Both the position numbers and the translations under genes were made by a program. From Rosellinia necatrix (lineage: Eukaryota > Ascomycota > Sordariomycetes > Xylariales > Xylariaceae), in assembly GCA_021209875.1 (NCBI GenBank), contig JAGYVD010000006.1, positions 3,968,001 to 4,032,000 of the forward strand: a DNA stretch of 64,000 nucleotides, given 5' to 3'. Within the stretch, counting starts at the first letter, position 1. The number at the start of each line of letters is the position of its first letter. Below are positions 3,214 to 58,257 of the stretch, piece by piece. The notes under the pieces are model-generated. The model made no database searches. It had not been told where the DNA came from and saw only the letters and a list, made by a program, of their open reading frames with translations.

Positions 3214-4598
3214 TTAGTCTTTGAAATCCTCTGGTAACGGCAATTGATCAATGGCCGAGCAGATTCTTTCAAAGTGCCGTGGCATCCAAATGTCGTAAAT
3301 ATTCTTTGTGAACCGGTATGTAGTCCACTTCTCTTTTCCATGGAGCTCTGTAAAATTAAATCCACGAATGAAGTGGCGGTAATACTTTGTGTTTTTCCCG
3401 TCGATTATTGGATAATATCCGTATAGTCTTACGCCGCAAGAGTCGTGCGATATGGAGAAGGCGAGGATCTGGCGGTGGACATCACCCTCGCGCTCAACGA
3501 GGCGAAAAAGCTCGACGACGGCTCGTGCCGCCAAGGTCATGCTGTGGGCATTCTGGCGGTCCGCCACCTCCAGCGCCCCGGCGCCACACTGTACCTCGCA
3601 CGTAAGGAATGGAAAGAGCATATAGTACGTGGCCATAAAGAACGACAAATCGCCATCGAGATACTCGCCGAGAAATAGCGACAGTCTGGTGAGCTGGTCG
3701 GCTGTAAATGCTTCCATCTGGAACCCAACAGAGTAATCTGGCTGCGGGCGGATCTCCGTCAAAGGGATTGAGTTGTTCCAACCCTCATTGGTGCTTTCTG
3801 TTAGGATGGCAAGGTGTTTGTTCTTGTTGTAGAGGGCAAGCGTTTCTGCCGAAGGGACAAGGAGACGGGATACATCTGAGATGACCCTCTCTTCGTTCTT
3901 TCCCTGCAGATTATCACAAGCCTTCTCAAAAATAGAGCCATCATCATCATTATCATCATCAAAGATGGATCCCTTCGGAGTTGGCTGAATACTGTCTAGT
4001 AAATCTCGGCAAGTCTGCTGGCTCTCGTCCGCGATGCCTTCCTTTGCTGCTCGCATATATGTTCCCCTCATCTCAAGGAGCATTTGGTAGCGCGCATCTC
4101 GGTATGGCGTGTTTTTCTCCTCGCGCGGCCTCTAGTCGCTCTTCGATCGCTTACGTCCAGGGATAGTCAATGACCGCTGTCGCGCCAGGATGCGCTCCTT
4201 GGCGGTGGGCTCGAAGACCTCCCTTGGCCAGTGCCCTTTCTTTCTCCAGAAATCGACCGGGTTATTAGGGTTGACGTCGTCTACTGTGGCGTCGCCAGGG
4301 TAGTCGTCAGCGACAGATGGTCTTTTGGGTGGTATAGGGCCGGAATGGCGGGCATCATCGACGAGTTGTGCTTGCCTTTGGCCTTGGATGGGAGCCATTT
4401 CGGACGACGTATGATATGATTTTCGACGCTGACGTTTATGTTCATGTGTCGGGAGGTGTTGGTCTATTTATCGTCAGTTCTTCTTGTCAGCCATAGTCCG
4501 ATGGTCGGCGGTTCATGCAACATACCCTGATCCTCTAGACGGTCATCCTCTAGATGGTGCGGCCTTTTGGGGGCGCCCTGGGCTCGAGTGTGAACCAT
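3214..4598 (-). pseudogene. DUF7924-type protein gene interrupted by one in-frame TAG
   Basis: Two exons are modelled: 4598-4526 (MVHTRAQGAPKRPHHLE...) and 4463-3214, joined across a 62-nt GTATGT...AATAG intron in frame. The protein would be about 440 codons. The C-terminal half matches the fungal DUF7924 family, which I regard as PD-(D/E)XK-nuclease-like: VPSAETLALY, PQPDYSVGF, FFMATYYMLFPFLTCE, DRQNAHSMTLAARAVVELFR, and ENI-type end DIWMPRHFERICSAIDQLP. The basic N-terminal part contains NPVDFWRKKGHWP, also typical. Codon 135 (4134-4132) is TAG; the frame is otherwise open to the normal stop at 3214. The expected E-x-K of the nuclease core reads EVQ here, so the catalytic Lys also seems lost. 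It is either a young pseudogene, a read-through gene, or a shortened protein starting at Met 4083. Confidence 0.75.
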
Positions 4599-8400: not shown

Positions 8401-10895
8401 GCAAATCTGGCCATCTATACTTTGGCGTAGCGGCGCTACCAAATCTCCTAGCAATCGGCTATGGAATGGTATGTCACACCGGACCATTTTGAAATGAACG
8501 TTGGTTTGTGCCATTTCCGTAGAGAGCCTAGATAGAGCTTCAGATGATCCGGCGATTACGCATGATTCGGGGGAGGCGTCGACAGCAACATCTACTTCGG
8601 CGAACTCGCCTAGGCTCGACTTCATCTTTTGCGCGCTCATACCTACCAACGCCATTCCGCCATGGCCAATTACACGTCTGAAGAGACGTGCTCGCCTACA
8701 GACGAAGAGCGCACCTTCTCTCAGAGTCAACACTCCAGCCACGACCGAGGCAGCGGTCTCGCCAAGGGAGTGTCCCACGACGGCGGACGGTGCTCCGGCC
8801 ACCTGCAAGAGCACTGCAGCTAGACCAACGTGCATACAAAAAGTCATAACTTGTATTTCGTCGGTTCGTTCAACGGTGTTATTCAGAAGTGCCTCGATAA
8901 GAGAGAAGTCTAACTCTTGCTGGACTATGGGCTCCAACTCTCGGACAACACCGGCGAAGGTAGGATTGCTTTCATACAACTCCTTTCCCATTGAGGGCCA
9001 ATGTGACCCATGACCTGGGGAGCTGTCAGTGTTTCTTGCTTAATAGGAAGGCGCCCTCAAAATGGAAAATCCCAACAATAAATAGGGTGTTGATGACCAC
9101 GCATATACTAACCTGAGAAGACCCAGACTACTCCCTTGCGAGCTCCATCGGATGATATGCGATTTTGTATAGTAAATGGGTGCTCAAGGCCTTCTGCAAG
9201 CCTTTCAAAGGCTGATGTCGCCTCGTCTCTACTAGCAGCAACTATGGAAGCCCTGAATCTATGATGAGCACGACGGCTAGCCAATGTAGTGGCGACTTCT
9301 TGCAATGAACCACCAGGTCCCGGGGACCGAAGCCATCGGGCAAATAGTCGCGCAATTTCAGGTAACCGATTTTCCTGCGGGCCAGATATCAGCAGTAAGA
9401 CTGGACTGTCGTCAGGCTCAGGTATGGCTTCGCAGCCTAGAGGAGCACTTGATGGACTAGCTTCTAGGATCGCATGTGACACGGTTCCGCTATACCCATA
9501 TGATGCTACGGCCGCTCTTGCAGGGCTTCCAGAGCGTTTAATCAATTCCGTAGCTTCTTTGTGGACTTGGAGCCCGTTTCTATCCCAGTCAATTTCGGAA
9601 TTTGGCTTCTCGAGGTTTACCTGGCCCGGAACCAGCCCGTGCTGAACAACCTTGACGGCCTTAATAAGACCGAGCACTCCAGCTCCGGCTTCTAAATGGC
9701 CAATATTAGACTTGATAGAGCCTATGGTGCAGGGGTAGGAACGGTCTGTTCCTCCGCTGGTTCCGTATACTTGAGAAATAGCATTCACTTCAGTAGGGTC
9801 GCCAAGTGGTGTGCTTGTTGCGTGAGCTTCGACGTACGAGATGCTCTCAGCAGTTATCTTAGCATCCTTCAAGGCTTTCCGTGCTACAAGGCACTGCGCG
9901 GCCGCACTAGGAGCCATGATTCCGGCGGTTTGACCGTCGGCGCACACAGCGGTTCCTTTCAGGATACCGTGAATCTGATCCCCGTCTGCGATAGCGTTGT
10001 CGAGGCGCTTGAGGACTACAATGCCGGTTCCCTCGCCTCGACCGTAACCGGAAGCTGAGTCATCGAACGACCTGCATTTCCCGTCGGCCGATAGAGCGCC
10101 GGCCTTGTCGAGGACCTGAGTCAGGGCGGGCCCTATAACGGCATTTACGCCACCCGCAATTGCCAACCGTGTCTCTCCGGCCAGTAATGCTTGGCGAGCT
10201 TGGTGGACGGCCACCAGAGAGGAAGCACACGCAGCATCTACGGCAATGCTCGGTCCCATTAAATTGAAATGATACGAGATGCGACCAGGCACGCCACAAT
10301 AAGCCGTACCAACTCCCATGTGAGCCTCAATGTTCTGCAGGTCTTCTAGCATAAGTCTGCTATAGTCGTCGGAGTCTACGCCCATGAAAACGGCTGTGTC
10401 ACTGCCGGAAAGGTGATCAGGCGAGATACCGGCGTCTTCCAGAGCCTCCCACGCCACCTCCAAGGCGATTCGCTGCTGGGGATCGATCTGTTCAGCTTCC
10501 CGAGGAGCTATCCCGAAAAATGCGGCATCAAAATCCTCCAGTCTGTCTAGGAAATACCCTTTGGTTGTCGTCTTTTTCAGCACTTCCGCATTCCGCGGGT
10601 GCCTGCTGTGATAGGGCTCCCATCTCATGGGGGGTATCTCTCCGGCAGCGTCCCCCTTCCGTAAGAGGAAATCCCATAACTGGTTCGGCGAGTTGTTGCC
10701 CCCTGGGACACGGCACGCCATGCCGATTATGGCGACATCTCTTAAAGCGCCTTCTTGGTTTAGGTTGTCGTTAACACTCGTTGCAAGAGGCGTGGTTGCC
10801 TGGAAAGACGACTGCTCTTCTTCCATAAGAGAAAATGCCATCGCCGGGGTGGTAGATAGCAGGGGCGACGGCGGCGTAGCAGCAGGCGAAATCAC
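5416..10895 (-). CDS. Partially reducing iterative type I polyketide synthase (6-methylsalicylic acid synthase type)
   Basis: Two exons, 10895-9113 and 9014-5416, are joined across a 98-nt intron that restores the AT start [18 protein letters not shown]; the model gives 1793 aa, the usual size for 6-MSA synthases. Domain order: KS (about 52-480; DAACASS with Cys223, [22 protein letters not shown]), AT (about 590-900; [11 protein letters not shown], Ser677), a DH-like/thiohydrolase region ([12 protein letters not shown] near 980), KR ([11 protein letters not shown] near 1440) and a C-terminal carrier protein ([11 protein letters not shown], phosphopantetheine Ser1751). No methyltransferase, enoyl reductase or thioesterase is visible. 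This KS-AT-TH-KR-ACP order and the motif details fit synthases that make 6-MSA from one acetyl- and three malonyl-CoA with one ketoreduction. Mellein-type relatives share the layout, so the exact product is inferred mainly from the decarboxylase and P450 across the divergent promoter. Confidence 0.93.
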
Positions 10896-13102
10896 AATAA
10901 CACAATACGTGGAAACTCTGGGCTTTTTAACACCAGTAGGCCCCGGAACAAATACCTCTTAACAACCTGCTGACGGTAGCAAGAAATATTCTCTACCACA
11001 TTTCATCAACTTAACTACATGGCTCCTAAGTCCTTTCACTAAGAAATTCCGCTTATCCCGTTCAGTATTGATGCCTACGATAACCGACCAAGGTCGCATC
11101 CCCCATTTCGATCATTATGCGAGGCGTGGCCTCCGTGGGACCGACTGCAGGCCACCAACTGCAAGCCACTTTAGCCAACAAGCTTGCCGAGTCAAAGAGA
11201 ATTGGTTTGATGAAGTATCAGGATACGCACGATTTATTTTCCCCGTCAAATACACAATAGCACGATTAATGCTACGATTAATACTACGATTAATACTCGA
11301 AGCACTACATGGATATGTTATCATAGAAATAAATATTGAACTACGTCATCTGCTCAGTCACCGCTCAAGCTCACATATCTTCAGATAATCTCTGCCCCTT
11401 TTTATTAACAATAATTCATCCCACCATTCCTTATCAATAGGATACTTTCGGCTTAACGGGACCTACCTCGAGAAGTGCTGCAACCGGATCGATCGGCTCT
11501 CACGTGGCGGTCGAAGTTGGGATCTTTGTGAAACGATAGTGCCGAACTACGATGCGCTTGGAGCAGGTACAACGTCATGTGTATTGTGTCTTTTACCTTG
11601 TCATGGGCCCGTCTGCCTATGATTTGTGACCTGCTATATCACCATTGCCATATAAGCCATCACAAGCGTGTGGTTCTATTTGGCATCGTGGAGCACGTGG
11701 GGCGACCCATGGCGGTAGTCACGGGCCGCTCAGCACTAATAATCTCAACTATCTATCGGAATGTCCCAGTTTTAGATCTTAGCGGCCAGCCAGCTGGCAC
11801 GCCATTGAGCACTAAGTCAGCCAATATTAGTATCGATCCTGCACAGATCATCCATATGCCAGTATGCCCTATCTAGTAGTCATGAAGTCCCCCACGTGGG
11901 GTTTGCTATTCTCCGTCGAGCTACGACCCAGATTCTTCTTCCTGATAGATGTGGTTCAGTAGACATGAGCCACCGATTCATGCCTCCTACATCACGCTAT
12001 TGAATAGGGGAAGACGTGTCTCTGTAGCTAAGTATTTAGTGAAGTGGGCCGCTGGTAAGTATTGCCGTCTCCGGCGGTCTTAATGGGAAACGGGGAGAAC
12101 TTAAAGCTCGCGGGTTTGGAGGGAAGCAAGTCGGTCGAGTCAACGATACCAAAATGAAATAGAATTGAACAAGATCTAACACTACGACTATAAATCGTGG
12201 AGTGTTCATAATTGATATAACTAGTAGTGAAGTCATTTGCAGTGTAAGGCACTCCCTACTTCAGCTCAGATTATATCATCTCAATCCACTTCATTACATA
12301 CTATCCGCCCCCTTACGTTTCCTGGATACTATCGTCTGCACAAACAATACGGCCGGCGCCACTAGAAGAGGTTGCATATGCAGTGTTCAATAGTGATAGC
12401 GTGTACAACAGGCGTAGTGTAGAAAAACTTTGATACTGAGACAGCCTTGGTACCCAATCACATAGTAGATTTCTGAATCATCCCAACCCGGCCGGCAATC
12501 TAGATTTTCAACAGAAACAAACGGACTGGTTTTAGTGTCTACGATTTATATAGTTTCTCTTACAGCTTACTGTCAACATACGCTAAAGTGACTCGCAAAG
12601 TTTATAATTAGAGGTGTTATTACTGAGGTCCCTGGCCCGACATCGCTGGCAGTTTCAATCCTCTTGGACATGGAAGCAACATTTATATATCCTACTAAGG
12701 GCTGGAGATCGGTGACTGTTGTAGACGGGAGACGACAGTATCTTTGGAAGATTAAAGATGGCTTGCTCCCGAAGATGACGTAAAAATATGCACGCGTGGT
12801 GAGGCCCTCTCAATAATACCAGCTAGATTGGCCCTTCGTACCCGCCTTAGTCCCAATCATATCATCTAGAGTACGCCACTCGACTGCCTTCAAGATTTGA
12901 AAGTCTAGATTTTAGATAAGTCTTGTTATCACACTTTAGAGCTTGCAAACACAACCCCAATTTCTATTTTCTACCAATGGTCCTATTCTAGGTCAACAGA
13001 GAAGCAGAAGCTGACCGACACAGAGAATTTGTTAGCGATTATAAAATATAGAAAACGGTCTACGTGTGGTTATGATTCACTAAGTTTCGCCTATCGCCCA
13101 AG
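10896..13102. promoter_or_regulatory. 2.2-kb divergent intergenic region between PKS and decarboxylase genes
   Basis: This gap separates the minus-strand PKS from the plus-strand decarboxylase and P450, so it must contain the promoters of both sides. It is AT-rich, holds a triple 12-bp repeat at 11262-11297, and contains no open frame that looks like a protein. No specific transcription-factor site is claimed. Confidence 0.5.
11262..11297 (+). repeat. Three tandem 12-bp units ACGATTAATRCT
   Basis: ACGATTAATGCT is followed by two copies of ACGATTAATACT, spaced exactly 12 bp, about 370 bp upstream of the PKS start codon. It may be a simple repeat or a clustered binding site; the sequence alone does not decide. 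Confidence 0.8.
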
Positions 13103-14142
13103 ATGAGTCGGATCGATGTGCATCATCATTTCATCCCTGAATCATACATTCTAGGTAACTAGCACACACTTTGTTTCTTTTTCCCGGACCCCAATGACTA
13201 ATATGGATCTCAGCATATAATGCCGCCGGAGGTGACCCATCTGGTTGGATACTCCCGCAATGGAGTCCGGAATCAAGCATCGAACTCATGAAGTCACACC
13301 AGATCGGCACAGCTATCCTGTCCGTCACAGCCCCTGGGCCAACAGTGCTCCAAGGAAACCCAACAGCTGCGGTGGAGCTCTGTGTTAATATCAACAACTA
13401 CGCCGCTGCCCTCTGTGGACAATATCCCGGTATATTCGGGTTCTTTGCAACGTTGCCTCCGCTCACTGACGAGAACCTCGACGATGCTATCCACGAAGCG
13501 GTGCGGTCACTTGAGACATTGAAGGCAGATGGAGTGACCCTATATACAAGCTACGGTGGTAACTATTTAGGGTATTCCGGCTTCCAACGGCTGTGGGCGG
13601 AGTTAGACCGCCGTGGCGCCGTAGTCTTCGTCCATCCTACACATTCTTCTGACACGAAGCTGGTCAATCCAGCCCTCCCACAACCCGTGATCGACTACCC
13701 GCATGAGACCACCCGTACAGCGGTGGACCTGATCATCTCCGGAACTGTGAGGAGCCACCCCCGTACCAAGATCATTCTCTCGCACGCCGGCGGTACCCTC
13801 CCGTACCTCGCTGCCCGTGCTGCCCACCTCACCGCCGATGCAGGTCTCGCCCATTTAGATGCCGCCGAATTCCTGGACCAGGCCCGTTCGTTTTACTTCG
13901 ACCTTGCCCTGTCAAGTAATCCTTTAACACTGGACCTCATTCTCCGATTTGCAAAGCCGGGTCACGTCCTATACGGCAGTGACTTCCCCTACGCCCCAAC
14001 GAAGACGATCTGCACAAATGACAGGATGCTTGAAGAGTATACGGGAATGGATGACCAGATTCGCCATTCGGTGGTGCGGGGGGCGGCCACGCAGCTTTTT
14101 CCGAGACTGAACAATACCGAGGCCGTTGGCAAGCGCAGCTAG
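13103..14142 (+). CDS. Amidohydrolase-family decarboxylase, 6-methylsalicylate decarboxylase-like (PatG/YanB type)
   Basis: Exon 1 (13103-13154) codes MSRIDVHHHFIPESYIL and joins across a 59-nt intron (GTAACT...CTCAG) to exon 2 (13214-14142), giving 326 aa, the normal length for this family. Metal and active-site signatures of the ACMSD-like amidohydrolases are present: the N-terminal HxH (His7/His9), GGDPSGW, FVHPTHSSD, a late SHAGG with conserved His and GSDFPY with the catalytic Asp. The N-terminus and GDPSGW segment closely recall fungal 6-MSA decarboxylases of the patulin and yanuthone pathways, which convert 6-MSA to m-cresol. It is divergently oriented to the 6-MSA-type PKS and 545 bp ahead of a P450 in the same direction, which supports this substrate. 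Other benzoate-type substrates remain possible. Confidence 0.88.
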
Positions 14143-14687
14143 AGAGTCGCGCTAGTATATTACTATTCATTTTGCCTCTCACTCCTATTCACCTCTGCAG
14201 CGGCGCTAGTCTCAATATCATAATTCCGCGCATCCAATCGCCACCTCTGCACATGCTTGGAACTTTTCTACATCTTGTGACCGCTTGTACCGAACTAGAT
14301 GCTGTTCGGAATAGGGGTTATGACTATTGGCTATGGCTGATGAGCACGAGCAGAAACTGACGAATAGGCACCCTGTGACTTATACCCAGCTTGGGGCCGA
14401 AGGTAGTCTGCCTCGGAATAATTTTCATTGGTTAATCTATCAAGGATCGAGATCGGGATGTAATGGGAATGTGATTAGGTGTTGAAATCGAAATCGAGAT
14501 CAAGGCTATATCGTCTGTGTAATACATCATGCCGTTTTTATCGTAGTTTCGGAAACACTTCACGTCTACCAGCTGACCCCGCCTCGTGCCTGTCGTGGTT
14601 ATTAAAGGGACTTCGCGAAACCTCTAAATCCCTGCGACAAACAGTTTCGAAATACACACCCTAACTTCTATAAGAGATTATTAACAA
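14143..14687. other. Intergenic spacer before the P450 gene
   Basis: No gene is seen. It must contain the decarboxylase terminator and the P450 promoter. Confidence 0.5.
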
Positions 14688-16343
14688 ATGCCATATATCT
14701 ACCTCCTATCCCTCATTGCTGCGCTGGTCGGCTCGATGGCCCTCACGTATGGCTGGGGTGTCCGATCGAGGCCCGGCCCAGGGCCGCCAGCCTTACCTAT
14801 TATCGGCAATCTTCACCAGATACCCAAGACCGGTGCGCATCGGAAGTCAGTGTTCTCTCTCCACCATCGTATATGCCGTGAAGCGTCGCTTACGTATCGC
14901 CGTTACCGGCATAGATTCACGGAATGGGCTGCCATATATGGCGGTCTTTTCACCCTCAAGTTAGGACCTGCCCTGGCCGCCGTTATTACAGATCGTCGCC
15001 TGGTGAAGGAGCTGGTAGACAAAAAAAGCTTAGTGTACAGTGACAGACCGCATTCCTACGTATCACATGAACTCATCACCAAGGGCGATCACCTACTCGT
15101 AATGAAGTATGGGGAAACCTGGCGTTCTCTCCGACGGGTAATTCATCAGTATTTCATGGAATCGATGTGTGAGAAAAAGCACATGGAGCTCGTCGAGGCA
15201 GAGCAGGTCCAGATGATGCACGACTTCCTCCAAAGCCCCGAAAGACACATGTGTCATTCCAAAAGAACAAGTAATAGTATCATCATGAGTCTCGTCTTCG
15301 GCATTCGCACGGAATCCGTGGAGACGGCGCATATGAAAGAACTTTATGCCATCATGGAGCGCTGGTCCGAGGTCATGGAGGCCGGAGCCACACCGCCAGT
15401 GGACATGTTCCCGTTTCTAAAGCTCATCCCGGAATCATGGTTTGGCAACTGGGTTCAGAGGTCGCTGGACGTGGGCCAGCGGATGTCGAGACACTATAAC
15501 GGCTTGCAATTGCTAGTACTTGCCCGACGTCAACGGCACGGCAGCCGAGACACCTTTATGGATCTTGTGTTGGATCAACAGGGCAAGCTAAATCTTACAC
15601 CCCACCAGCGTGACTTCTTAGGCGGCGTGCTCATCGAAGGCGGGTCGGATACCGTCGCAACCATGATGCTGGTGATCATTCAAGCGCTCACCCTCCACCC
15701 GGAGGTCCAAGAACGGGCATGGGCCGAGATTGATTCCGTATGCGGCGAAGACCGCTCTCCTACATGGGCCGACTTTGAACAGTTGCCATACATCACCATG
15801 ATCGTCAAAGAGGCCATGCGCTGGCGGCCTGTGGCCCCTCTTCTCTTCCCACATGCCCTGTCTAAGGACGACGTGGTCGACGGCAAGGTCCTGCCGAAGG
15901 GCACCACCGTCTTCATCAACGCCTGGGGCCTCCACCACGACGAAACCGTGTTCCCAGAGCCAGACAAGTTCAACCCCGGCCGCTACACGGGAAGGACCAA
16001 ACTAGCGGCCGAGTATGCGGCCTCGGCGGACTATGCAAGCCGGGATCATTATGCGTATGGGGCCGGGCGCCGTATATGTCCAGGCATCCATCTGGCCGAG
16101 CGCGAGTTATTCCTCGGCACGGCCAAGCTACTATGGGCGTTTGGATTCCAGCCGCGTCTTGACGCCCAAGGGCGGCCGATCCCCATCGATACCGATCCCC
16201 TTTCGGGCTACTCGGAGGGCTTCCTGGTCTGCCCGAAGGACTTCGCCTGTAGTATCAAGCCACGGTCGACGCGACGAGCGGAGACCATTGTCCGCGAATT
16301 CGAGAAGGCAAATAAGGAAGTCTTCTCTCGGTATCGTGAATAA
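14688..16343 (+). CDS. Cytochrome P450, CYP619-like (m-cresol hydroxylase type)
   Basis: The reading frame is open for 551 codons, but codons 53-75 are not P450-like and are flanked by a GTCAGT donor (14846) and a CATAG acceptor (ending 14914). Removing this 69-nt in-frame intron restores NLHQIPKTGAHRKFTEWAAIYGG and gives 528 aa. An N-terminal membrane anchor precedes the proline-rich GPGPPALPIIGN hinge. The I-helix EGGSDT, the KEAMRWRP ExxR motif and the heme-binding YGAGRRICPG (Cys about 441 after splicing) are intact. Similarity to the PatH/PatI class is judged from the FTEWA...YGGLFTLKLG start and overall layout; those enzymes hydroxylate m-cresol in the ER. Its position next to the decarboxylase fits hydroxylation of the methyl group or ring. 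Regiochemistry cannot be told from sequence. Confidence 0.9.
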   Translation: MPYIYLLSLIAALVGSMALTYGWGVRSRPGPGPPALPIIGNLHQIPKTGAHRKSVFSLHHRICREASLTYRRYRHRFTEWAAIYGGLFTLKLGPALAAVITDRRLVKELVDKKSLVYSDRPHSYVSHELITKGDHLLVMKYGETWRSLRRVIHQYFMESMCEKKHMELVEAEQVQMMHDFLQSPERHMCHSKRTSNSIIMSLVFGIRTESVETAHMKELYAIMERWSEVMEAGATPPVDMFPFLKLIPESWFGNWVQRSLDVGQRMSRHYNGLQLLVLARRQRHGSRDTFMDLVLDQQGKLNLTPHQRDFLGGVLIEGGSDTVATMMLVIIQALTLHPEVQERAWAEIDSVCGEDRSPTWADFEQLPYITMIVKEAMRWRPVAPLLFPHALSKDDVVDGKVLPKGTTVFINAWGLHHDETVFPEPDKFNPGRYTGRTKLAAEYAASADYASRDHYAYGAGRRICPGIHLAERELFLGTAKLLWAFGFQPRLDAQGRPIPIDTDPLSGYSEGFLVCPKDFACSIKPRSTRRAETIVREFEKANKEVFSRYRE

Positions 16344-22342: not shown

Positions 22343-23482
22343 CTATGTAAGGCGGGTTAGTATTAAATGATCTGGAGTGATAGCGTGATAAAAGCGGTAT
22401 CGACCTCTAGGCGCTAGGCAAAAAAACGAGCCCGGGAACATGGAGTGAGAAACGTGATAATCGCCGGGGACACTTACTATCCTCCCGTACTTTATAATTA
22501 TCCTCCGCAATCCTCAGCACATCCATATCCGCGTCGACGACGGACATGCCCTCGGCGCGGCCTCGGCGCCCCAGCGCGCCGAGGTGCGGGAGGCCGACCT
22601 GACTCAGGCCGGCGAAGTTGGTGTGCTCGCCCCTGGCGGGCGGGCCGCCGGCGTTGACGAAGACGACGGCGCAGGTGTTCTCGAAGGCGCGGGCGACGAC
22701 GGTGCTGTTGAGAAACGTGGCCTCGCCGTCCGGGTTGAGGGCGTAGCCCTCGTCGGTGACGTCGCGCATGGTCCAGAAGGCGGGCACGCAGACGAGGCGG
22801 GCGCCGTCCGCGACGAGCGCCCGGAAGGCCTCCGGAAAGGCCAGGTCCCAGCAGATCAGCAGGCCGACGCGGCCGAGGGGCGTGTCGAAGGCGGCGTGCG
22901 GCTCGTGCGCCGACGACACGAGGTGGTGGCGCTCCGGGTGCCACAGGTTCTTCTTCTGGTAGCGCCCGGCGATCGTCCCGTCTGACGAGATGAAGTAGGC
23001 CACGTTCTGTAGCGACTCGCCTTCCGTCTCGATCATCGTGCCGGGGACGATGCAGATGCTCAGCTCCTTTGCCAGGTCCTGGTACTTCCGCAGGTAGACG
23101 GGATAGTCCGCACATGAGCCCCTAAACCCCGCCTCTTCGGGCGCCCATGACGTGAGATGGTACTCGGGCAATACGGCTAGATGGCATCCTTGAGCGGTCG
23201 CATCGCGGATATAGGATGCCGCCTTCTCGAAATTCCGGGCCGGCGACAGCGGCTACCATACAATGTAAGTAGGCATTTCATGGGTATAGGACTATGATAT
23301 ATGATATATCGAGGATCTATAGGTAGTTCGCGAGATCTCAGCCCGAGTCCTGGAACGCCCGCACGGGCCTCGGCCAATGCTGAAGGCACTATGATTGATC
23401 TGAGTCCTCAAATGCGGGGGAGACGGTAGACACTCACTTCAGGATGGAGTTGAACCAAAGCAATCTTATAAATGGGAGCCAT
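22343..23482 (-). CDS. Carbon-nitrogen hydrolase (nitrilase superfamily)
   Basis: Exon 1 (23482-23438) codes MAPIYKIALVQLHPE; a 185-nt intron (GTGAGT...GGTAG) leads to PLSPARNFEKAA and the body of the enzyme. The nitrilase triad is complete: Glu45 in LAVLPEYHLTSW, Lys115 in YQKKNLW and Cys149 in LLICWDLAFPEAFR. The enzyme should cleave a C-N bond of a nitrile, amide or N-carbamoyl compound in the cytosol; the substrate is not predictable. The 3' end is ambiguous. Reading straight on gives a stop at 22407, while a consensus GTAAGT...GCCTAG intron (22477-22414) gives a third exon ending at 22343. Both models happen to be 296 aa, and I favour the spliced one because of its strong pyrimidine tract. 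Confidence 0.85.
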
Positions 23483-28085: not shown

Positions 28086-30931
28086 ATGCTTTTCACCACG
28101 CTCTCCTTGGTCGCTAGCCTGGCCCTGCCGGCGCATGCGCAGGGCGTCATCACGGACGACACTGTCTTCTACGGCGAATCGCCCCCGGTTTATCCCTCGC
28201 GTTCGTCGCCCTCCCCAGTCCGCCGGCAGCGTACTGCGTGGTACCAAATGACTCCTTTTCACTGACTGGCTGTGATATAGCACAAGGAACGGGTACGGGC
28301 GGATGGTCCGATGCCTACGCGCAGGCCAAGGCTCTCGTGGCGCAATTGAGCCTTGCGGAAAAGGTGCGTGTAGCATGGATGGATGGGCCATGGTAGTCCC
28401 TACCTAGCTAGCTTACTGACGTGAGCTCTGGCTGTAGGTGAGCCTCACGGGTGGCGTCACCGCCGATAGCTCTTGTTCCGGCATCGTGCCTCCCATCTCA
28501 CGAGTCAACTTCCCGGGTCTGTGCCTTAGCGATGCCGGAAACGGCGTCAGAACCACCAATTTCGTGTCCAGCTGGACATCTGGCATCTCGGTTGGTGCTA
28601 GGTTGGTTTCCTGTTGGCCTACTTTGATAATACTCTCCTCACACACCGTAATAGCTGGAACCGAGATCTCGCTCATAAGAGGGCGGTCGAAAGTAGGTCA
28701 CATCCAACGACAGATAGCACTCTGGGTGCGTCGAATCTCCGCTAACCGTTGCCAGTGGGCCTTGAATTCCGGGCGAAAGGGGTCAACGTCGCCCTGGGTC
28801 CTGTCGTGGGACCCGTGGGACGAATTGCTTCCGGCGGACGCAACTGGGAAGGTAAGTTGAGCATTACATTCCGACGACCAACGGATGTTGACGGTTCGTA
28901 GGTTTCTCTAACGACCCATACTTGTGTGGCGCATTGGCATTCGAAACGGTAGAGGGAACTCAATCTACCGGGGTTATAACCAGCACCAAGGTACCTACTA
29001 CTTTATTCTCTCACGGCGACCTCAGCGACTGATGGTGACTTCAGCACTTTATTGCCAATGAGCAGGAGAAGAACAGGAACCCCGGGGGCAACGTGGCTTC
29101 TGTGTCATCTAACATCGACGACAAGACTATGCATGAACTTTATCTTTGGTTCGTATAACATGGTCCTTCATGGAACGTGCGTCTCATCGTTAATTTTCTT
29201 GCAGGCCATTCCAAGATGCCGTCAAAGCAGGCACGGGCAATATCATGTGTTCGTACAATCGAGTGAACAACTCGCACGGCTGTGCCAATAGCAAGACACA
29301 AAATGGTCTATTGAAAACAGAGCTCGGGTTCCAGGTGAGCCATGTCGCACTATATTACTAATAATCAGCTTGCTTATGATGTAAAAGGGGTTCGTCGTCA
29401 CGGACTGGGGCGCGCAGCATGCCGGCGTTGCGACAGCATTGGCAGGGTTAGACATGGTGATGCCTAGCGGATCCGATTTCTGGGGAAACAGCTTGCTTAC
29501 GGCCGTGAATAACGGATCTGTCCCGGAGTCTAGATTGGATGACATGGCAACGAGGTAAGATGACAACACGCCAAAACCTGTGTGAATAACTGGGCTAACT
29601 TTTGTAGAATCCTTGCGACGTGGTACAAGATGAAGCAAGAAGAGGGTTTCCCGGCTCTAGGTATCGGAATGCCGGCTGATCTGACGAAGCCACACCAAAA
29701 AATCATCGCGAAATCGTCGACAAGCAAGGAAGTACTCTTACAGAGTGCTATCGAGAGCCATGTCCTTCTCAAGAACGAGAATGGCGCCCTCCCTCTCAAA
29801 TCCCCCTCCCTCATTTCCCTTTTTGGTTATTCTGCCAAGTCCTTCGATGCCTACACGCCAGGGTCAACGGGATGGAACGGTGGTTCCCAGCCCATCAGTA
29901 CTGACCGAAGTTTGCAAATCGCCCCAAATGGGTTGATGCTATCAGGAGGTGGTTCTGGGGGTAATCAGCCCGCGTATGTGAGCTCGCCGTTTGATGCCCT
30001 TAGCCAACGGGCCTACGACGACGGCACGAGTCTGTGGTGGGACTTCCATAGCGGCAACCCTCACGTTGACTACAATTCCGACGCCTGTATCGTCGTCGGC
30101 AACGCTTTCGCTACAGAAGGGCGGGATCGGCCCGGGTTGCATGACGACTTTACCGACGCCCTTATCGACAACGTTGCGTCGAAGTGTAAAAATACGATTG
30201 TCGTATTCCATAACGCTGGTGTGCGTCTTGTTGACCAATTCATCGATCACCCCAACGTCACGGCTCTGATCTTTGCACACCTCCCAGGACAAGACGCAGG
30301 CCGCGCCTTGGTATCGATACTCTACGGCGACGTTAACCCGTCGGGTAAGCTGCCATACTCGGTCCCTCGCAACGAATCGGATTTCGGGCCTCTGCGGAAC
30401 GTCTCGCTCCCCGAAGGTATTTACGCAAGGTTCCCGCAGTCTGATTTCAGCGAGGGTGTGTACATCGATTATCGCGGTTTCGATGCTAAGAACATCACGC
30501 CGCGGTACGAGTTCGGCTTCGGCCTGAGCTACACCACATTCGGGTATTCGAATCTAGTGGTGACTTTGGCGGACGGTGGGGATTTCTCGTCGTACCCTTC
30601 AAAGCCGATCATTGAAGGCGGACATGAAGATCTTTGGGATCACCTCGTTAGGGTCACCGCGGATGTGACCAACGAGGGATCGGTAACAGGCGCGGAAGTG
30701 GCGCAGCTCTATGTTGGTATCCCTAATGGGCCTGTGCAGCAGCTCCGTGGGTTCGCCAAACCACTGCTCCAGCCCGGAGAGTCCGCTACCGTTACCTTTG
30801 ACCTGACGAGACGAGATTTGAGTACGTGGGATGTTGTTGCTCAGAATTGGCTGCTGCAAGAAGGAGATTATCAAATTTATGTCGGTCCCAGCAGCCGAAC
30901 GTTGCCCCTGGCGGCCGCTTTGGAGATTTAG
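28086..30931 (+). CDS. GH3 beta-glucosidase, secreted
   Basis: Ten exons can be joined in frame: 28086-28200, 28281-28363, 28438-28601, 28655-28692, 28756-28851, 28902-28990, 29045-29148, 29205-29334, 29388-29554 and 29608-30931. They give 769 aa. The N-terminus [19 protein letters not shown] is a signal peptide. The order of GH3 landmarks is complete: [72 protein letters not shown] and [12 protein letters not shown] with the catalytic nucleophile at about Asp279. The glycine-rich second domain and a C-terminal fibronectin-III-like domain ([20 protein letters not shown]) follow. The enzyme releases glucose from the non-reducing end of beta-glucosides such as cellobiose, outside the cell. Nine introns, all short, is many for this family. 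GH131-CBM1 at 56 kb may act on related substrates. Confidence 0.93.
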
Positions 30932-35129: not shown

Positions 35130-37196
35130 TCAGACGATGGTCAATTTCCTTTCCACCGCGCACCCCATCATGAAGTCATGATCCTCTACGCTGTCAACCC
35201 TCAACCTCCCAATCCGATCGAAGGCTCCGGGCACCCTCTCAGACACCCTTAATATGAGTCCAGCGTATTCGTGCCCCCGCCCCCCCGGCAGCACCGTGCC
35301 AAGAACAGCGAGCCATGATATCTCCGAGCCATGCGGCACGGAACCCTCCCCGCGCAGCTCGTAATCTGGCCAGAAGCACCCCGTCATCTTCCTCGAGCCG
35401 AACTGCACCGAGAATAGGCGGTCCAGCCGCTGCTCTGCGCCGGCGTCCTCCCAGAGTAGTATCCCGTCCGCCACGGGTCCACGCACGGCCAGGCTCGCGG
35501 ACGCCAGCCGACCCGTCGGATCCGGGCCGGCGAGGACGCACGTCGCCTCCGCCGAGGCGAGGAACCGCTCGCCGATCTCCAGGTACTTCCCGGGCCACCA
35601 GGCGCCGCCGTCCACGGAAGCCCAACTCCACGTGGGCGCGACCCAGCCCGCCGGCCTCGCCCGCGGCAGCGGTCCGCGCGCGCACCACGTCAGCCCCCGC
35701 ACGATCTCGCGCGCCCAGAGCCCGGCGACGTACCGGTCGCCGTCGCGGTACTGCCGCGACCGCCGCGCGGCGCCGGAGAGGGCGGGGAACCGGTCGCGCG
35801 CGAACGTGAGCGCGAGGCCGGTGTACTCCTCCACGATCTCGAGCCACGGCGCGGCCGGGTACTGCCCGCCCCCGTACTGCGTCCGCGGCCCGTGCAGGAA
35901 CGCGCCGAGCACGACCTTGGGATTCGCGAAGCGGTCGCCGTCGCCGTCGCCGTTGCCGCCGAGACATTGGCACTCGCATCGGTGCAGACACTCCCATACC
36001 GCCTCGCTGGCGCCGAAATGCAGCACGCGCCGCGACAGCAGGCGCTCCTGGAGGACCCAGCCGCGCTGCAGGAGAGGCGCGGCCTCGCGCGCGCGCGCGG
36101 TGTGCGTCTCGTTATCCGCGAAATGCGGGATGGGGCGGCGGCACCATATGGGCAGCGTGGTCTGCCCGTCATTCAGGGCGAGTGAGAGTTCGTGTGACGT
36201 ATAGGCGCCGGGCAGCGTGGAGTGCAGCCCGTGGTGCGAGTCTGACGCGTTGGTCGCCGCCACGGTCAGCGCGGCTTGCGAGTAGACGTTGCACATGGCC
36301 GCCGCCTCCCGGGCCCAGTCGTCCGTGTCGTCTTGGACAATGCAGACGCTGTCGATCCAAAGATATCGGAAGTGTAGTCTGCGCAGCACCTCGATGACGT
36401 CTTGGAAGGTCTTGGGTATGGAAGCCCATTGGATTCCGGCGCGGTTGCTTGCCAGGGTAGACTTCAACGTAATGCATGCCGGCTTACTTTTACCCCAGCA
36501 GTGGCTGAGACAAACATAGTCCACGTGAGAGCCGAGTAGACTGGCCTGTGTCTCGAGCAGTTGGACCCCGGATTCACATTGAGGACTTGTAACATCGAGG
36601 AGTCGCGTGGGTATGTATGGTGCGGAGTCAGATCTGCATTTATCGTGAGACTTTACGCATAACGAATACCAATTTTGAATTTGCCTCAGTGTCTCCTCAA
36701 GATCGGTCCTAGCCGGCACTGGCTGTCCAACATGAAATTCTGTTGGGAGGTGTGAACTGGGGACAAGTATCGTCTTTGAACCTATTGCTCTGGATCATAT
36801 TAACGGCTCTGTTTCGCTTTGAGGATGTGTGCAGTGGTATACAAATGCCACATCTAAATCCTAAAATCCATTGGTGAGCTAGTTAAACATACCTGGATGA
36901 ATGAAGAACTCTATCTCGTAAACCGCCCCCCCGTCGCCTTCGGCCACTCTTGCCTGGCTATCATTCCGCTCACGACCAGTAAGCACACTATAATTCCAAA
37001 TCCACCCGACGGTGAGGCGACGAGCTTCGGGTGGACAGATGGCAATGATACCCTGGACGAAAAGCTTGCATTTCGCGCAGCCGTTCTTCATGTCCTCGTA
37101 CGTAGGCTTCCATCGGACATGAGGGGGAGGTGGACAGATGGGACAAGACGGAAGCAGCCAGCGACGATCTTCTACTTGGCCCAGTTCTACGAACAT
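35130..37196 (-). CDS. HET (heterokaryon incompatibility) domain protein
   Basis: Exon 1 (37196-36893) and exon 2 (36781-35130) join across a 111-nt GTATGT...CAATAG intron to read IEFFIHPG-SKTILVPSSHLP; total 651 aa. The N-terminal part has CPIC and CAKC pairs. The HET domain lies in the middle: YVCLSHCWGKSKP, then RYLWIDSVCIVQDDTDDW with NVYSQAALTVAATNA. After it come GWVLQERLLSRRVLHFG and PTWSWASVDG, which are standard for this family. HET proteins mediate self/non-self recognition on hyphal fusion and can trigger programmed cell death; many fungal genomes carry dozens of paralogs whose partners are unknown. The middle of exon 2 is very GC-rich. No second domain (NACHT, ankyrin) is fused here. 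Confidence 0.92.
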
Positions 37197-42132: not shown

Positions 42133-44615
42133 ATGGCTGCCAAGCGCGTTTGTCTGTGAGTTGAACAGAAACCATTGCTGCCTTCTAAGCGCTGTTAGGC
42201 TGACTCGACGATTCCCGTGAATCAGGGCATACTCTGGCGGTGCGTTTTTCTACTTAAACAGGGCTACCTGAGTACGATAACCATGCTGATGCAGATGCCA
42301 GGTTTGGATACTTCTGTTATCCTAGCTTGGCTCATTGAGAAGGGCTATACTGTTGTTGTGCGTCCAACCCAGTCGATGTACCTGCGCCGGGCTGACTGAG
42401 AACAGGCGTTCCTAGCAGATGTGGTACGTACAGGCCATCCCTCGACATGTACTCCTCGGTCTGGAAGACAAGCCCCGTGCCCTGTTCATAGGGAGGATAC
42501 AAAGAGAGACGACCCGGACGATAGAAAGAGATGGACTGCCATTCTCGGGGCCGACTCGCTGCCATAGCGGCTTCATTTGCTCGTATCCCTTTGCTAACAC
42601 CACGGCAGGGGCAAAATGAGGACTACGACGCAGTCAAAGCGAAGGCCGAGAAGATCGGTGCCGAACGCATGATCATCCAGGATCTTCGGCAGGAGCTAGT
42701 CGAGGAACTTGTTTGGCCAGCAGTGCAATGTGCGTTCGGTCGATCCCCCGTGCGAAGTGCACAACTACCATCCACGGCTATGCTAACATCTCACGTTGTT
42801 AGGCAATGCGGTATACGAAGACGCTTACCTCTTGGGGACGTCGTTGGCCAGGCCTGTCATTGCGAGGGCGATGATGAAAGTGGCTAAGCAGTATAACTGT
42901 GAATTTTTGAGTCATGGATGTAAGCAATCGATGTCGTCTTTCAGCATCTGCTTACTGTCGTGTCATACTGACTGTCGTCTCTCCTACCTACACAGGCACA
43001 GGTAAAGGGGTAGGCACGCCGTTTTTCATGCAGAACCTCCGTTCTTCCCTCTCCGTATGTCATGTTCTGGATGCTAACTCGCTTTTAGAATGAGTACGTT
43101 TAGGTGTCCGGATATCAATGTTACATACTCACCCTGTTATAAGCCAGGTCAGATTCGAGCTGGCATGGAGGGCCCTCGATCAGAAGACAAAGACAATCAT
43201 CCCGTGGCGCATACCGGAGTTTTGTGACCGATTCGCGTCCGTGCCCCTGCCTGCCCCCACTTTGTCTCGAAGATACTAACATACAGACAGCGGGCGTCAA
43301 GCACTCTTAGACTTTGCTGAATCAAAGGGCGTCCCTGTGACGTCGACTAAGCAGAAGCCGTTTTCGATGGATGCCAACATTATTCAGTGAGCAAAAGCCC
43401 TCTACCTCGTCCCAATGAGACCTTCACGCATACTCGGTGTTTATATGGCGTTACAAACGACCGCGGTACAAAATGAGGCACCCTAGCTTCAGCCGTCTTG
43501 ACTGGCCACTACTGTCAGTTTATAAACACACGGCAACTCGCAATGATGTGCAAGTACCAAGAGCGCCTCGGTATCAGCGTGATACCTATTGGGGAGGGAA
43601 TCTCAGGAACTCCAGAAGTGGCAGAAGTGGCAGAAGCACGCAGCAAGTGCTGCCTTTTAGGTGCTATACAACTTCGTATATCACGCGGACAAGACTGTAT
43701 AGTGTGTACAAGACTTGATACTTTCTTCTGCCACACTATGAGGCTTCCATTTGACCTCTTTCTCCCGGCCGGGCATAGAATCGTCGCTAACATTTCCACC
43801 TGAAAATAGTTGCTCTTACGAGGCGGGTCTTCTCGAGCAACCCGAACTCGAGCCGCCGGCCGACATGTGGACAATGACCGTGGGTAAGTTCGTTCAGCCT
43901 TGAATCAGTTCCGTGACGTGGAAGCTAACTTCGAAAGATCCCATGAGAGCCCCTGACGAGCCAACCAAGTTCACCGTCCACTTCGAGAAGGGCATCCCAA
44001 TCAAGCTTGAGGTCGGTGACAAGACCATCACTGGCTCACTGGACATCTTCATGGCCGCTAACGAAATTGGCCGAGCTAATGGAGTTGGCCGCGTCGACAT
44101 TGTCGAGTCAAGGTTCATTGGTCTCAAGAGCCGTGGCTGTTACGACACCCCCGGCCTGACGATCCTGCGCACCGCCCACCGAGATCTCGAGGGCCTTGTC
44201 ATGGACTCCAAGGTCCGTGCCATCCGTGACCAGATGGTCACCTCGAACTGGACCGCATGTCTCTACAATGGCATGTACTTCAGCCCAGAGCGAGAGTTTC
44301 TCCACAACTCCATCATCTTTAGTCAGCGGCACGTCGAGGGCAAGGTCAATATGGTTGCCTATAAAGGCAGCGCATTCGTTGTCGGGCGCTCCAGCGAGAC
44401 CTCTAACCTTTACTCCGAGACTGAGTCGTCCATGGATACTCTAGAGGGCTTCTCCCCAATGGTAAGTTGTATTCTGAAAAAGAGCTTTGAGGCGTGAACT
44501 GAAGCTGATGATGTGGTTTAAGGACACGAGCGGCTTCATTGCTATCCAGGCAATCCGTCTGGAGAAGTATGGCGCCCGGAAGATCAGGGACGGCGAGCCT
44601 CTTGCCCCTATCTAA
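42133..44615 (+). CDS. Argininosuccinate synthase, 13-exon gene with micro-exons
   Basis: Exons: 42133-42155, 42226-42239, 42302-42357, 42406-42423, 42609-42729, 42803-42919, 42996-43009, 43089-43093, 43144-43236, 43291-43386, 43810-43883, 43938-44461 and 44523-44615. The sum is 1248 nt, giving 415 aa, the family length. All junctions are GT-AG and rebuild the conserved sequence: VCL-AYSGG-LDTSVILAW (ATP-binding SGGLDTS), FLADV-GQNEDYDAVK, PAVQC-NAVYED, SHGC-TGKG-ND-QVRFELAW, PWRIPEFCDRF-AGRQALLDF and ANIIH-CSYEAG. The enzyme joins citrulline and aspartate with ATP in the arginine pathway. The first two thirds are cut into tiny exons (18, 14, 14 and 5 nt among them), while the last 524-nt exon is uninterrupted. 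Intron 10 is 423 nt, far longer than the rest. No frameshift or stop occurs, so it looks functional. Whether it is the sole copy cannot be told here. Confidence 0.9.
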
Positions 44616-55551: not shown

Positions 55552-56726
55552 CTATAGGCACTGGTGGTAGTAATCGTTCAGGACGCTGCAGGTGCTGCCG
55601 GCGGCACACGCAACGCATCCTGTCCAGTTAATGCCTCCGCATTGCCTATAGTGGGTGCATGCGAATTAGTGACGTCGGCCAAGGTTCGGGCAGAACCCGA
55701 GGAGAAGGACTACTCACGCGTATTTCGGCGAGGTGCAGCCCGCCGTTGTCGTAGTAGCGGGTGCCGACGTCGTAGTGGTCGAGGACACTCTGGTGGTAGA
55801 AGTTGAGAGAGTCGTGGTGCTGGTGCTAGCCCTGGTAGTGCTGCTGCTGCTGGAAGAACCCCCGCCTCCGGAGGAACCTAGAACCGCGTCAATAAGGGGC
55901 CGTCCCCCCTGAGGGATACGACGGATCATCACGCTCACTCACCTCCCGGTCCGGATACGGCGGTCGTCAGGCTGCCGCTCTCGACATAGACACCGGAGAA
56001 GTAGAGGTCCTCGTCGGCGTCGGGGTAGCCGTCGCGGGGCAGCTCCAGTACGCCGAGGTGCCAGTCGGCGCCGTTGCTGGAGGCGGAGACGGAGACGGCG
56101 GCCACCGTCAGCTTGAGGTCGTCGGACCCGGTCGAGTGCCAGAAGGCGGCCGTGTTGGCGCTGAAGTCGATCTCGTAGGCCACGTTGTGCCACACGCCGG
56201 CGGTGAACTCGGTCTGCCACTGCGTCTGGCTATTGGCCATCCATCGCAGGTTGGGGTCGGACGTGCCGCTGGCGCCGCTCAGCCAGCCGACCTTCATCTC
56301 GGTGAAGTGGCTCTCGAAGAAGTTGACCTGGTGCTCGCGGGTGGTGGCGGGCGCGTTCGTGGCGCTGCGCATCATGCTGAAGTGGTACCACACCTTGCCC
56401 GCGTTGATGGCGGCCTTCGTCTGCGGGATCAATTCCGTGCGTCGCATCGTCTGCCCGTTCCAGTACGCCGTCGAGTCGAGAGTGACCTTGACACCTTGGC
56501 TCGAGCCAGTGTCGGCAGGGTTCTTGTAGCTGGGCGACAGGTTCACGTAGTCGGTGACCTCGCCGGCGCCGTGGATATAGTATTGATACGGGCCGACCTG
56601 GTTTGCCCAGGACCAGTTGTTCAAGTCTGTAGACGAGGATAGATCGTTGAAGCGGCCATCCCAGAGCACGGTCCCGCCGGCTGCGAGCCGGCTGCTCGCC
56701 AACGCCAGAAGCCAGGAATACCTCAT
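55552..56726 (-). CDS. GH131 glucanase with C-terminal CBM1
   Basis: Three exons (56726-55943, 55877-55718, 55645-55552) give 345 aa. I chose Met 56726 because [18 protein letters not shown] is a signal peptide; upstream Met codons in the same frame would hide it. The catalytic domain (about 20-258) matches GH131: [71 protein letters not shown] and [13 protein letters not shown] Gly/Ser/Thr-rich linker (about 262-308) leads to a fungal cellulose-binding module CBM1 (CTSPKYAQCGG, NWTGC, AGSTC, and terminal YYHQCL). GH131 enzymes cut beta-1,3/1,6- and beta-1,4-glucans and are linked to plant-tissue colonisation and wood decay. The intron positions place the CBM1 start across exons 2 and 3. Secreted. 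Confidence 0.93.
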
Positions 56727-58257
56727 ATCGCAACGTCCAGCAAGAGAGGGAGAGAAGCGCAGGGCAGGTGAGTCTCTTGCTACCGACAAGTCTTCCACAC
56801 GAGTAGTTGTCCACACGTATATATAAGAGTACGCGTATGATTAGATCCCGGTCGGGGGGTCCGCCCGCGACCCGTAATCAAGCCATCGTCACTACACTAC
56901 GGCTACTCGGAACAGGGCATGCTGGTGGCATGGGGCGCGACATGGTGAGGATGATGGGGGAGGAGGTGGATGCAGTGCCTCCGTGCTCCGTGCTCCGTGC
57001 CCAGATTAGAGGTTTCGAAGCCTTGCGGTCCCTGCCACAGCCATCCTTGCATGGGCCTCCCATTATATGTATACGGAGAGGCATGTAGCGTCTCCACCGC
57101 CTCCTCGGAGCCCTGATGTTTACGCGCGGCGGCCCAGCGGCCCAGAAATTGCACCAATAGAGCGGCCGCGGCCTGGGCCATCCCACGACACTTGCGGGAT
57201 CTCGGGATCTGCACCCGACGATGCCAGCCGCAGAACCAACGGGCTCCGGAGTCACATTCGAAAACGGAGACGAGACAGGCGCCCTCGTGAGTTACCACTT
57301 TCCTCCGGCCTCATTCGTGCTGCTCGTCATCCAGCACATGAGATGCCTAACGTCATCCGCCATCTACCATCTACCATCTACCATCTGCCATCTGCCATCT
57401 GCGCATTGAGTTAATTTGAGATGCGAGCAGCACGGATGCGATCGCTACTACTTCACCGTGCACTATAAACCCAACTGGTGTATCAGCCCAATAACAGGGA
57501 AAATACACACCAAGACGGCAACCTATTTATAGCAAAGGAAGCCTGGCCAGAGCGTCACAATAGAATAATGGAGGAAGCCCTAAACGAATGAAAGTGAAGA
57601 GACAGGAAATGGTAAATGGACGGGCGACGCACCCCTTCATAAGTCGTCAGCCCGTACCTCCTATGAGTTTATGATGCCAGGCGCGATACTTGGCAATTTG
57701 TTAGGTAACTAAGTAGGTGGGTTACTTCTGTTCCTAAGAGCATGGAAGAAAATGCTCTGCCTAATTGAATAACTATACTAAAAGGCCATATTATATAAAT
57801 ATTAAGGTGGTGTGGGAGTTATATGCAGATAAAGGTTCAAGCGCGAGATCCCGTCTAGAGCTAATTCGCCCCACGATGACGTATAGACTGCGTTCGGGTG
57901 TTCAACAAAGGTTCCGAGTACCAGTATAGATGGTAGGCACAACCAAAAGTTCTTAGTATTAGTACCAGCAGGCCAATTGGGAAGGAGAGGGGGCAGAGTG
58001 AGCTCCTTCAACCTTCATCACAGGCAAGTCGTAGATAAGGAGCTATAAAAGACAAGAGCAAGCAGGCACCTACCTGTAGGTACCCGTATTATCAGTTAAT
58101 CGTTCCCCCATCCCAATTCCAAACTCCTGCCCATCGCATCTCGTCCCAAACAACACGATTCACCCACATACCACCACGTCGTATCAGCACCAGAACCACC
58201 TACCGCCTTGCTCGCCTCACGTCCGTCACCTCGTCAAAAGACAGTCAGAGAAACAGT
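56727..58257. other. Intergenic region with a 7-bp tandem repeat
   Basis: Between GH131 and the SRPBCC gene; contains the CCATCTR array at 57360. No gene supported. Confidence 0.5.
57360..57401 (+). repeat. 7-bp tandem repeat CCATCTR, 6 units
   Basis: Three CCATCTA units followed by three CCATCTG units without interruption. Confidence 0.85.

Follow-up and report, generated by a model that had tools for sequence, protein, structure and literature searches.

A predicted five-nucleotide exon in a conserved motif of a Rosellinia necatrix argininosuccinate synthase gene, and traces of it and its 14-nt neighbor in a fungal clade

Can an enzyme of primary metabolism be encoded by a gene in which part of a conserved motif is carried on an exon of five nucleotides, and if so, is such an exon a local accident or an old feature of the gene? 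The question is raised by a locus of Rosellinia necatrix that lies in a stretch of 64,000 nt, called the window here, which occupies positions 3968001-4032000 of 4357776 on contig C4 in a 49.1-Mb genome of 12 contigs. A sequence-only reading of the window had proposed an argininosuccinate synthase (ASS) gene of 13 exons, four of them extremely small. Its exon model was borne out: the 13 exons, joined as proposed, give a CDS of 1248 nt that encodes 415 aa and a stop with no internal stops, and all 12 introns, which range from 48 to 423 nt, run from GT to AG. The four micro-exons and the 524-nt exon 12 likewise lie where they had been placed (positions are those of the window).

42133..42155 (+), exon 1, 23 nt, with the start codon
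42156..42225 (+), intron 1, 70 nt, phase 2, GTGAGT...CAG
42226..42239 (+), exon 2, micro-exon of 14 nt, codes in L-A-Y-S-G-G; residues 8-13 are missing from P0059 of Xylaria digitata
42240..42301 (+), intron 2, 62 nt
42302..42357 (+), exon 3, 56 nt
42358..42405 (+), intron 3, 48 nt
42406..42423 (+), exon 4, micro-exon of 18 nt, AFLADV; skipped in the Metarhizium acridum model P0006
42424..42608 (+), intron 4, 185 nt; 5' part read as coding in P0009, a Xylaria bambusicola model
42609..42729 (+), exon 5, 121 nt
42730..42802 (+), intron 5, 73 nt; kept as coding sequence in P0003 of Cosmosporella, with a nearly identical translation
42803..42919 (+), exon 6, 117 nt
42920..42995 (+), intron 6, 76 nt
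42996..43009 (+), exon 7, micro-exon of 14 nt, C-TGKG
43010..43088 (+), intron 7, 79 nt, branch-like CTAAC, acceptor TAG; its 3' part is translated in M. acridum P0006
43089..43093 (+), exon 8, micro-exon of 5 nt, AATGA, Asn122 and the first two bases of Asp123
43094..43143 (+), intron 8, 50 nt, GTACGT...AAG, with a weaker branch-like site
43144..43236 (+), exon 9, 93 nt
43237..43290 (+), intron 9, 54 nt, GTCCGT...CAG
43291..43386 (+), exon 10, 96 nt
43387..43809 (+), intron 10, 423 nt, the longest of the 12; a search of the genome gave no other copy
43810..43883 (+), exon 11, 74 nt
43884..43937 (+), intron 11, 54 nt, GTAAGT...AAG
43938..44461 (+), exon 12, 524 nt
44462..44522 (+), intron 12, 61 nt; read through at the same place in the contig protein P0122
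44523..44615 (+), exon 13, 93 nt, with the stop codon

Under a strict definition of a micro-exon (at most 15 nt, with AG before and GT after, in mature mRNA), the 14-, 14- and 5-nt exons qualify by size and splice sites and the 18-nt exon exceeds the size limit. A branch-like CTRAY lies 9-24 nt from the acceptor in 11 of the 12 introns, the exception being intron 8, immediately 3' of the 5-nt exon, which has CTCAC only; acceptors are AAG in introns 8, 11 and 12 and CAG or TAG in the others. Intron 10 also carries a 22-nt imperfect inverted repeat (43627-43648 and 43713-43734).

The predicted product is a full-length ASS. It scores 461.8 bits against the NCBIfam equivalog TIGR00032, well above the cut-off of 268.2, and its residues 5-402 align with residues 7-404 of human ASS (2nz2) at an E-value of 6.5e-127, with both SGGLDTS and TGKGNDQVRFEL falling within the alignment. 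The window protein thus has in common with the ASS family full-length homology as well as GKGND and other motifs, and what sets the gene apart within the family is its architecture and its membership of a clade (clade II, below) other than that of the 412-aa Sordariomycete type. The 5-nt exon encodes the Asn of GKGND and all but the last base of its Asp codon, residues that contact citrulline and aspartate in the human enzyme.

Does the reading frame need this exon, or could the motif be assembled in another way? Splice parses were enumerated between exon 6 and exon 9, with restoration of GKGNDQVRFEL as the criterion. The motif was restored by none of 453 parses with at most one intron and by none of 22,006 with at most two; among 188,611 three-intron parses it was restored by 10, all of which use the exon at 43089-43093 together with an exon 9 that begins at 43144, and one of these also keeps SHGC directly before TGKG. 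Every enumerated parse that restores the motif therefore needs the AATGA exon. A reachable arrangement of this kind (AG, then AAYGA, then GT or GC) arose in only 4 of 20,000 dinucleotide shuffles of 43010-43143. The readings contrary to the predicted exon would be its skipping, or a 9-nt AATGAGTAC exon in its place.

How might such exons be spliced? The sequence-only reading had held that exons this small are hard for exon-definition splicing. As a problem this finds no support, since PMC8624252, in the part of that text drawn on here, describes the splice sites of short introns as paired across the intron, with exon length of little weight, and each short intron of the window gene would probably be recognised as a unit. 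From the same part of that source comes the report that Prp40 is necessary for exons too small for enhancers (primary paper PMC8378409). Since U2AF and U1 are unlikely to find room on a 5-nt exon at the same time, introns 7 and 8 would probably be removed successively, and intron 7 may go first, as its branch-like site and acceptor are better than those of intron 8. None of the 14-, 14- and 5-nt exons is a whole number of codons, so skipping any one of them shifts the frame; together with the conserved GKGND this argues for constitutive inclusion, and we infer that all four micro-exons would be spliced constitutively.

To place the gene among its relatives, we built a tree of 226 sequences including that of the window, from which three proteins shorter than 350 aa from two full-length searches, as well as P0121-P0239, were excluded. 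A single midpoint-rooted FastTree run divides it into clade I (support on its side 0.68) and clade II (support 1.0). The 116 sequences of clade I come from Aspergillus and other Eurotiomycetes, Dothideomycetes, lichen fungi and the 412-aa Sordariomycete type, and the 110 of clade II, which include the window gene and that of N. crassa, are mostly from Sordariomycetes; order or family was looked up for nine taxa.

Conservation of the introns was read from errors in protein gene models rather than from the relatives' DNA, and in several models the errors fall on the exons and introns of the window gene. Cosmosporella P0003 translates intron 5, giving AFGRSPVRSAQLPSTAMLTSHAI against ...HVV in the window gene. 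The X. bambusicola model P0009 starts at the junction of exon 4 and intron 4 and runs into intron 4, with 13 of 18 aa alike over 42419-42472 (a segment whose start falls at the very end of exon 4); exons 7-8 are missing from this model. M. acridum P0006, apart from skipping exon 4, translates the end of intron 7, again with 13 of 18 aa alike, and a Trichoderma asperellum model is without exons 7-9. Six models (Cosmosporella, Fusarium culmorum, Stachybotrys chlorohalonatus, F. lateritium, Nemania bipapillata and F. zealandicum) have GNEY in place of GND, as would result if AATGA were read straight into a GTAY donor. The motif in these public models (P0003, P0028, P0051, P0052, P0058 and P0101) is probably false, and they probably need re-annotation.

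Breaks at residues 116-124 were found in 23 of 81 clade II NCBI models and in none of 28 unnamed contig proteins of that clade (Fisher p 0.0008), counts in which related species are not independent and broken frames are less likely to be listed among the contig proteins. An earlier count had 24 of 120 matches without a literal GKGND; P0004, which has a point difference, is excluded from the 23. The corresponding clade I figures were 4 of 71 NCBI models (p 0.0002 against clade II) and none of 45 unnamed proteins. Since real differences in the protein should appear in the unnamed contigs too, the breaks are probably gene-model errors, with the caution that four clade I models break there as well. 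None of the 28 unnamed clade II contig proteins in the tree lacks the motif, and the other 58 of the 81 NCBI models are intact at the 14-nt and 5-nt pair, as judged from proteins and not from exon structure. P0001, 95% identical to the window protein, has an unbroken 415-aa frame with GKGND kept on a contig of 1462 nt; this contig looks like a transcript, and the unnamed contigs are likewise taken for transcripts from their length. A relative of the gene among viral contigs was not found in one scan.

Taken together, these traces suggest that the 14-nt/5-nt exon pair is an old feature of ASS clade II, that is, mostly of Sordariomycetes, and it is for this pair only that wide conservation is claimed. 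Introns 4, 5, 7, 8 and 12 also appear to have counterparts within the subclade of the window gene or among its near relatives. The idea that all 12 introns are widely shared in clade II was dropped as unsupported: outside residues 110-130, only 6 of 30 breakpoints beyond the subclade fall at window intron sites (expected 9.9%, p 0.07). Breakpoints near these sites were found in 9 of 34 cases among clade I NCBI models, somewhat above expectation (p 0.016), and in 6 of 13 among unnamed proteins, mostly as truncated N-termini; because these groups also break near window introns, breakpoint counts alone are soft evidence.

What of the history of the introns themselves? The sequence-only reading had taken their clustering towards the 5' end as a sign of recent gain or of loss from the 3' side. 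The first of these is unsupported, as introns 4, 5 and 7 can be recognised in mis-predicted proteins of named species, intron 12 in P0122, and the 14/5-nt pair across clade II. The second draws modest support from a decayed paralog on contig C1 (below) with further introns inside the region of exon 12, although gain in that paralog would explain these equally well. Clade II models also break repeatedly near residue 85, where the window gene has no intron, and this, with the introns of the C1 relic, points to intron turnover among clade II genes. Nor do the micro-exons look like a recent peculiarity of this locus. A search for introner-like elements, which skips very common words, found no second copy of any intron in the genome and no long repeat among the introns.

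Within clade II the window gene falls in a subclade of 10 (support 1.0) that joins three orders, Hypocreales, Xylariales and Sordariales, with C-terminal identities of 92.5-99.6% between orders. M. acridum (Hypocreales) and X. bambusicola (Xylariales) are 99.6% identical over the C-terminal 226 residues. Clade I pairs used for comparison gave 85.8-89.4% between Hypocreales and Xylariales (n=6) and 90.7-92.0% between Hypocreales and Glomerellales (n=3); given the latter range, the excess in identity is modest for some pairs of the subclade. The pattern suggests horizontal transfer of the gene, with its introns, between orders. As the introns are alike between orders, such transfer would have been as DNA and not as mRNA, so the intron-rich gene of this subclade probably spread between fungal orders at the DNA level. 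Carriage as Starship cargo was considered and rejected: no DUF3435 captain lies near the gene, and the five PF11917 matches in the genome are on C2 (two), on C9 (two) and at C4:1963262, about 2 Mb from the window.

The neighbors of the gene are of several kinds. Upstream of it lie a HET-domain protein (35133-36794, -) and a piece of a P450 (39517-40254, +). Further away, KS, AT, DH, KR and ACP domains of a polyketide synthase are spread over two reading frames at 5419-10958 (-), near an amidohydrolase (13198-14139) and a P450 (14685-16340), so that the surroundings at 5419-16340 are probably a secondary-metabolite region. The window also holds a DUF7924 protein (3217-4131, -), a carbon-nitrogen hydrolase (22410-23252, -), the C-terminal part of a GH3 enzyme (29564-30928, +) and a GH131 enzyme (55938-56840, -).

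Is this the copy on which the fungus depends, or is there a conventional gene elsewhere? The search for a normal copy that the sequence-only reading had proposed was run with PF00764, PF20979, the window protein, a clade II ASS of Beauveria, a clade I ASS and the DNA of the gene as queries, the best candidates being scored. Among these, the PF00764 profile matches the genome at the window gene alone, and profile, protein and DNA queries found no intact second ASS in the assembly, which may be incomplete. The remaining matches come from two loci, both decayed and without the 5' half:

L011:2669-3606 (-), decayed ASS on contig C9, with matches in three frames and a TGA; best matched by clade II proteins of Tothia and Apiospora
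L012:2200-3140 (-), decayed clade II ASS on contig C1, with GT-AG gaps in its exon 12-matching region near residues 258, 272-280 and 325

With the 226 ASS proteins as queries, nothing in the fetched stretches matches 5' of about residue 184 in either relic (lower query numbers come from query proteins that are themselves shortened), and inspection by eye puts the start of both at the counterpart of exon 11. For each relic, the 12 proteins that match best all belong to clade II. The C1 relic has no match to the window protein past residue 379, and an origin as a retrocopy was ruled out for it, as the GT-AG gaps between its matching pieces show that introns are present. The possibility that the window gene is itself a pseudogene or a spare duplicate was likewise set aside, the best-candidate searches having found no other intact copy besides it, only these two decayed 3' halves. 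Argininosuccinate lyase (argH) was matched in pieces on C5 (positions 4-453 of 455). From the assembly and the best-candidate searches, the window gene is probably the sole working ASS of the genome, in which case the constitutive splicing of its micro-exons must be accurate. The earlier suggestion that selection still acts on the gene is supported by its full-length identity of 95% to both P0001 and P0002 and by the failure to find an intact second copy.

We consider it quite probable that the locus is a working ASS gene, probably the only one, with four constitutive micro-exons including an old clade II pair, and that it belongs to a gene that spread between orders and stayed in this lineage as the other ASS copies decayed. 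Of this reading, the exon model, the traces of conservation, the clade of paralogs and the decay of the other copies are shown by the sequences, and transcription, the order of splicing, the transfer and a sole role in the arginine pathway are deduced. The contrary view that the locus is dying or untranscribed, with the 5-nt exon a coincidence, can point to the weak sites of intron 8 (a sub-consensus branch and an AAG acceptor) and to a reduced GC3 on the 5' side (0.58, compared with 0.72), but it would have to reconcile these with 415 open codons, relatives at 95% identity, a micro-exon of a kind that is so seldom produced by shuffling and the failure of the best-candidate searches to find another intact copy; we regard it as very improbable. 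That inclusion of the micro-exons instead changes with growth state, so that ASS would be active only under some conditions, has a precedent in Xlr2 of Trichoderma virens (PMC11121469, in the part of that paper drawn on here), yet with sizes of 14, 14 and 5 nt and a motif conserved in ASS, skipping would most likely just destroy the protein. The motif is moreover present in every one of the 28 unnamed clade II proteins, although broken frames would rarely turn up among the results of a protein search, and such regulation seems to us improbable.

The historical part of the preferred reading has its own competitors. Fragmentation of the 5' part by recent intron gain in this lineage would suit 12 introns that are mostly 5' and the turnover seen near residue 85, and the introner search that speaks against it is weak; but the relatives contradict it for introns 4, 5, 7, 8 and 12, the pair is traced across clade II, and no copy of an intron was found elsewhere in the genome, nor a long repeat common to the introns. 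For introns that have left no trace in relatives, such as intron 10, it may yet be true, and as an account of the whole it is very improbable. Purely vertical descent, with an early duplication of clade II in the Sordariomycetes, patchy loss of paralogs and no horizontal transfer, deserves more credit: clade II is a large group, with 110 of the 226 sequences and N. crassa among its members, some genomes have both kinds (e.g., P0046 and P0318 of Thelonectria olida), and the window genome itself retains two relics of clade II affinity. It has difficulty, though, with the near identity of M. acridum and X. bambusicola, which exceeds all the Hypocreales-Xylariales values of clade I (unless either assembly is contaminated), and with intron-derived stretches that are alike between orders, and we think it unlikely. 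A bolder version of the transfer reading is that an essential gene with an old 14+5-nt pair, introns and all, crossed between orders and took the place of the other ASS genes of this genome, leaving arginine synthesis wholly dependent on accurate micro-exon splicing; this we offer tentatively, as possible rather than probable. In that case the ASS genes of clade II could serve as a natural reporter of micro-exon fidelity in fungi (e.g., of Prp40). Returning to the preferred reading of an old, constitutively spliced pair in a working gene, its interest lies both in annotation and in splicing. If the pair is shared as widely as the broken models imply, then of the 81 clade II NCBI models examined, 23, or over a quarter, misread a conserved motif of the enzyme. 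A gene of primary metabolism would also lend itself to a simple assay, growth without arginine, of how fungal spliceosomes include exons too small for exon definition. If the gene did pass between orders, its recipients would seem able to splice 5-nt exons at once, and the ability would be general in these fungi rather than specific to the gene.

Very small exons are not new to fungi, being already known down to 1 nt (PMC12940212), and what the ASS case adds is an essential pathway, a signal of transfer and damage to annotation; we found no paper on ASS micro-exons or gene structure among titles and the opening lines of abstracts, for some searches a part of the results. The closest parallel is the 1-nt exon of CYP621A P450 genes in Fusarium, published in 2026, which lies in a conserved motif, is supported by reads and, according to the authors, is wrongly represented in all public transcripts but one (PMC12940212, in the part of the article drawn on here). 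Both cases concern a filamentous ascomycete with a tiny exon in a conserved motif, without which the frame is lost; CYP621A differs in being a seldom expressed P450 with a single-nucleotide exon, described in Fusarium species from SRA reads, whereas the ASS exon of 5 nt, with its 14-nt neighbor, belongs to primary metabolism, is traced over several orders and is known from sequence alone. The conserved micro-exons of plants, 1-15 nt long and overlooked in annotation, with adjacent 5- and 12-nt exons reported in a rice transcript, resemble those of the window gene in being both conserved and mis-annotated, although that survey was based on RNA-seq and ours on errors in the models of a single fungal gene family (PMC8831610). 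Xlr2 of T. virens is another micro-exon of a filamentous fungus, but there it is alternative and regulatory (PMC11121469), whereas the micro-exons of ASS would be constitutive.
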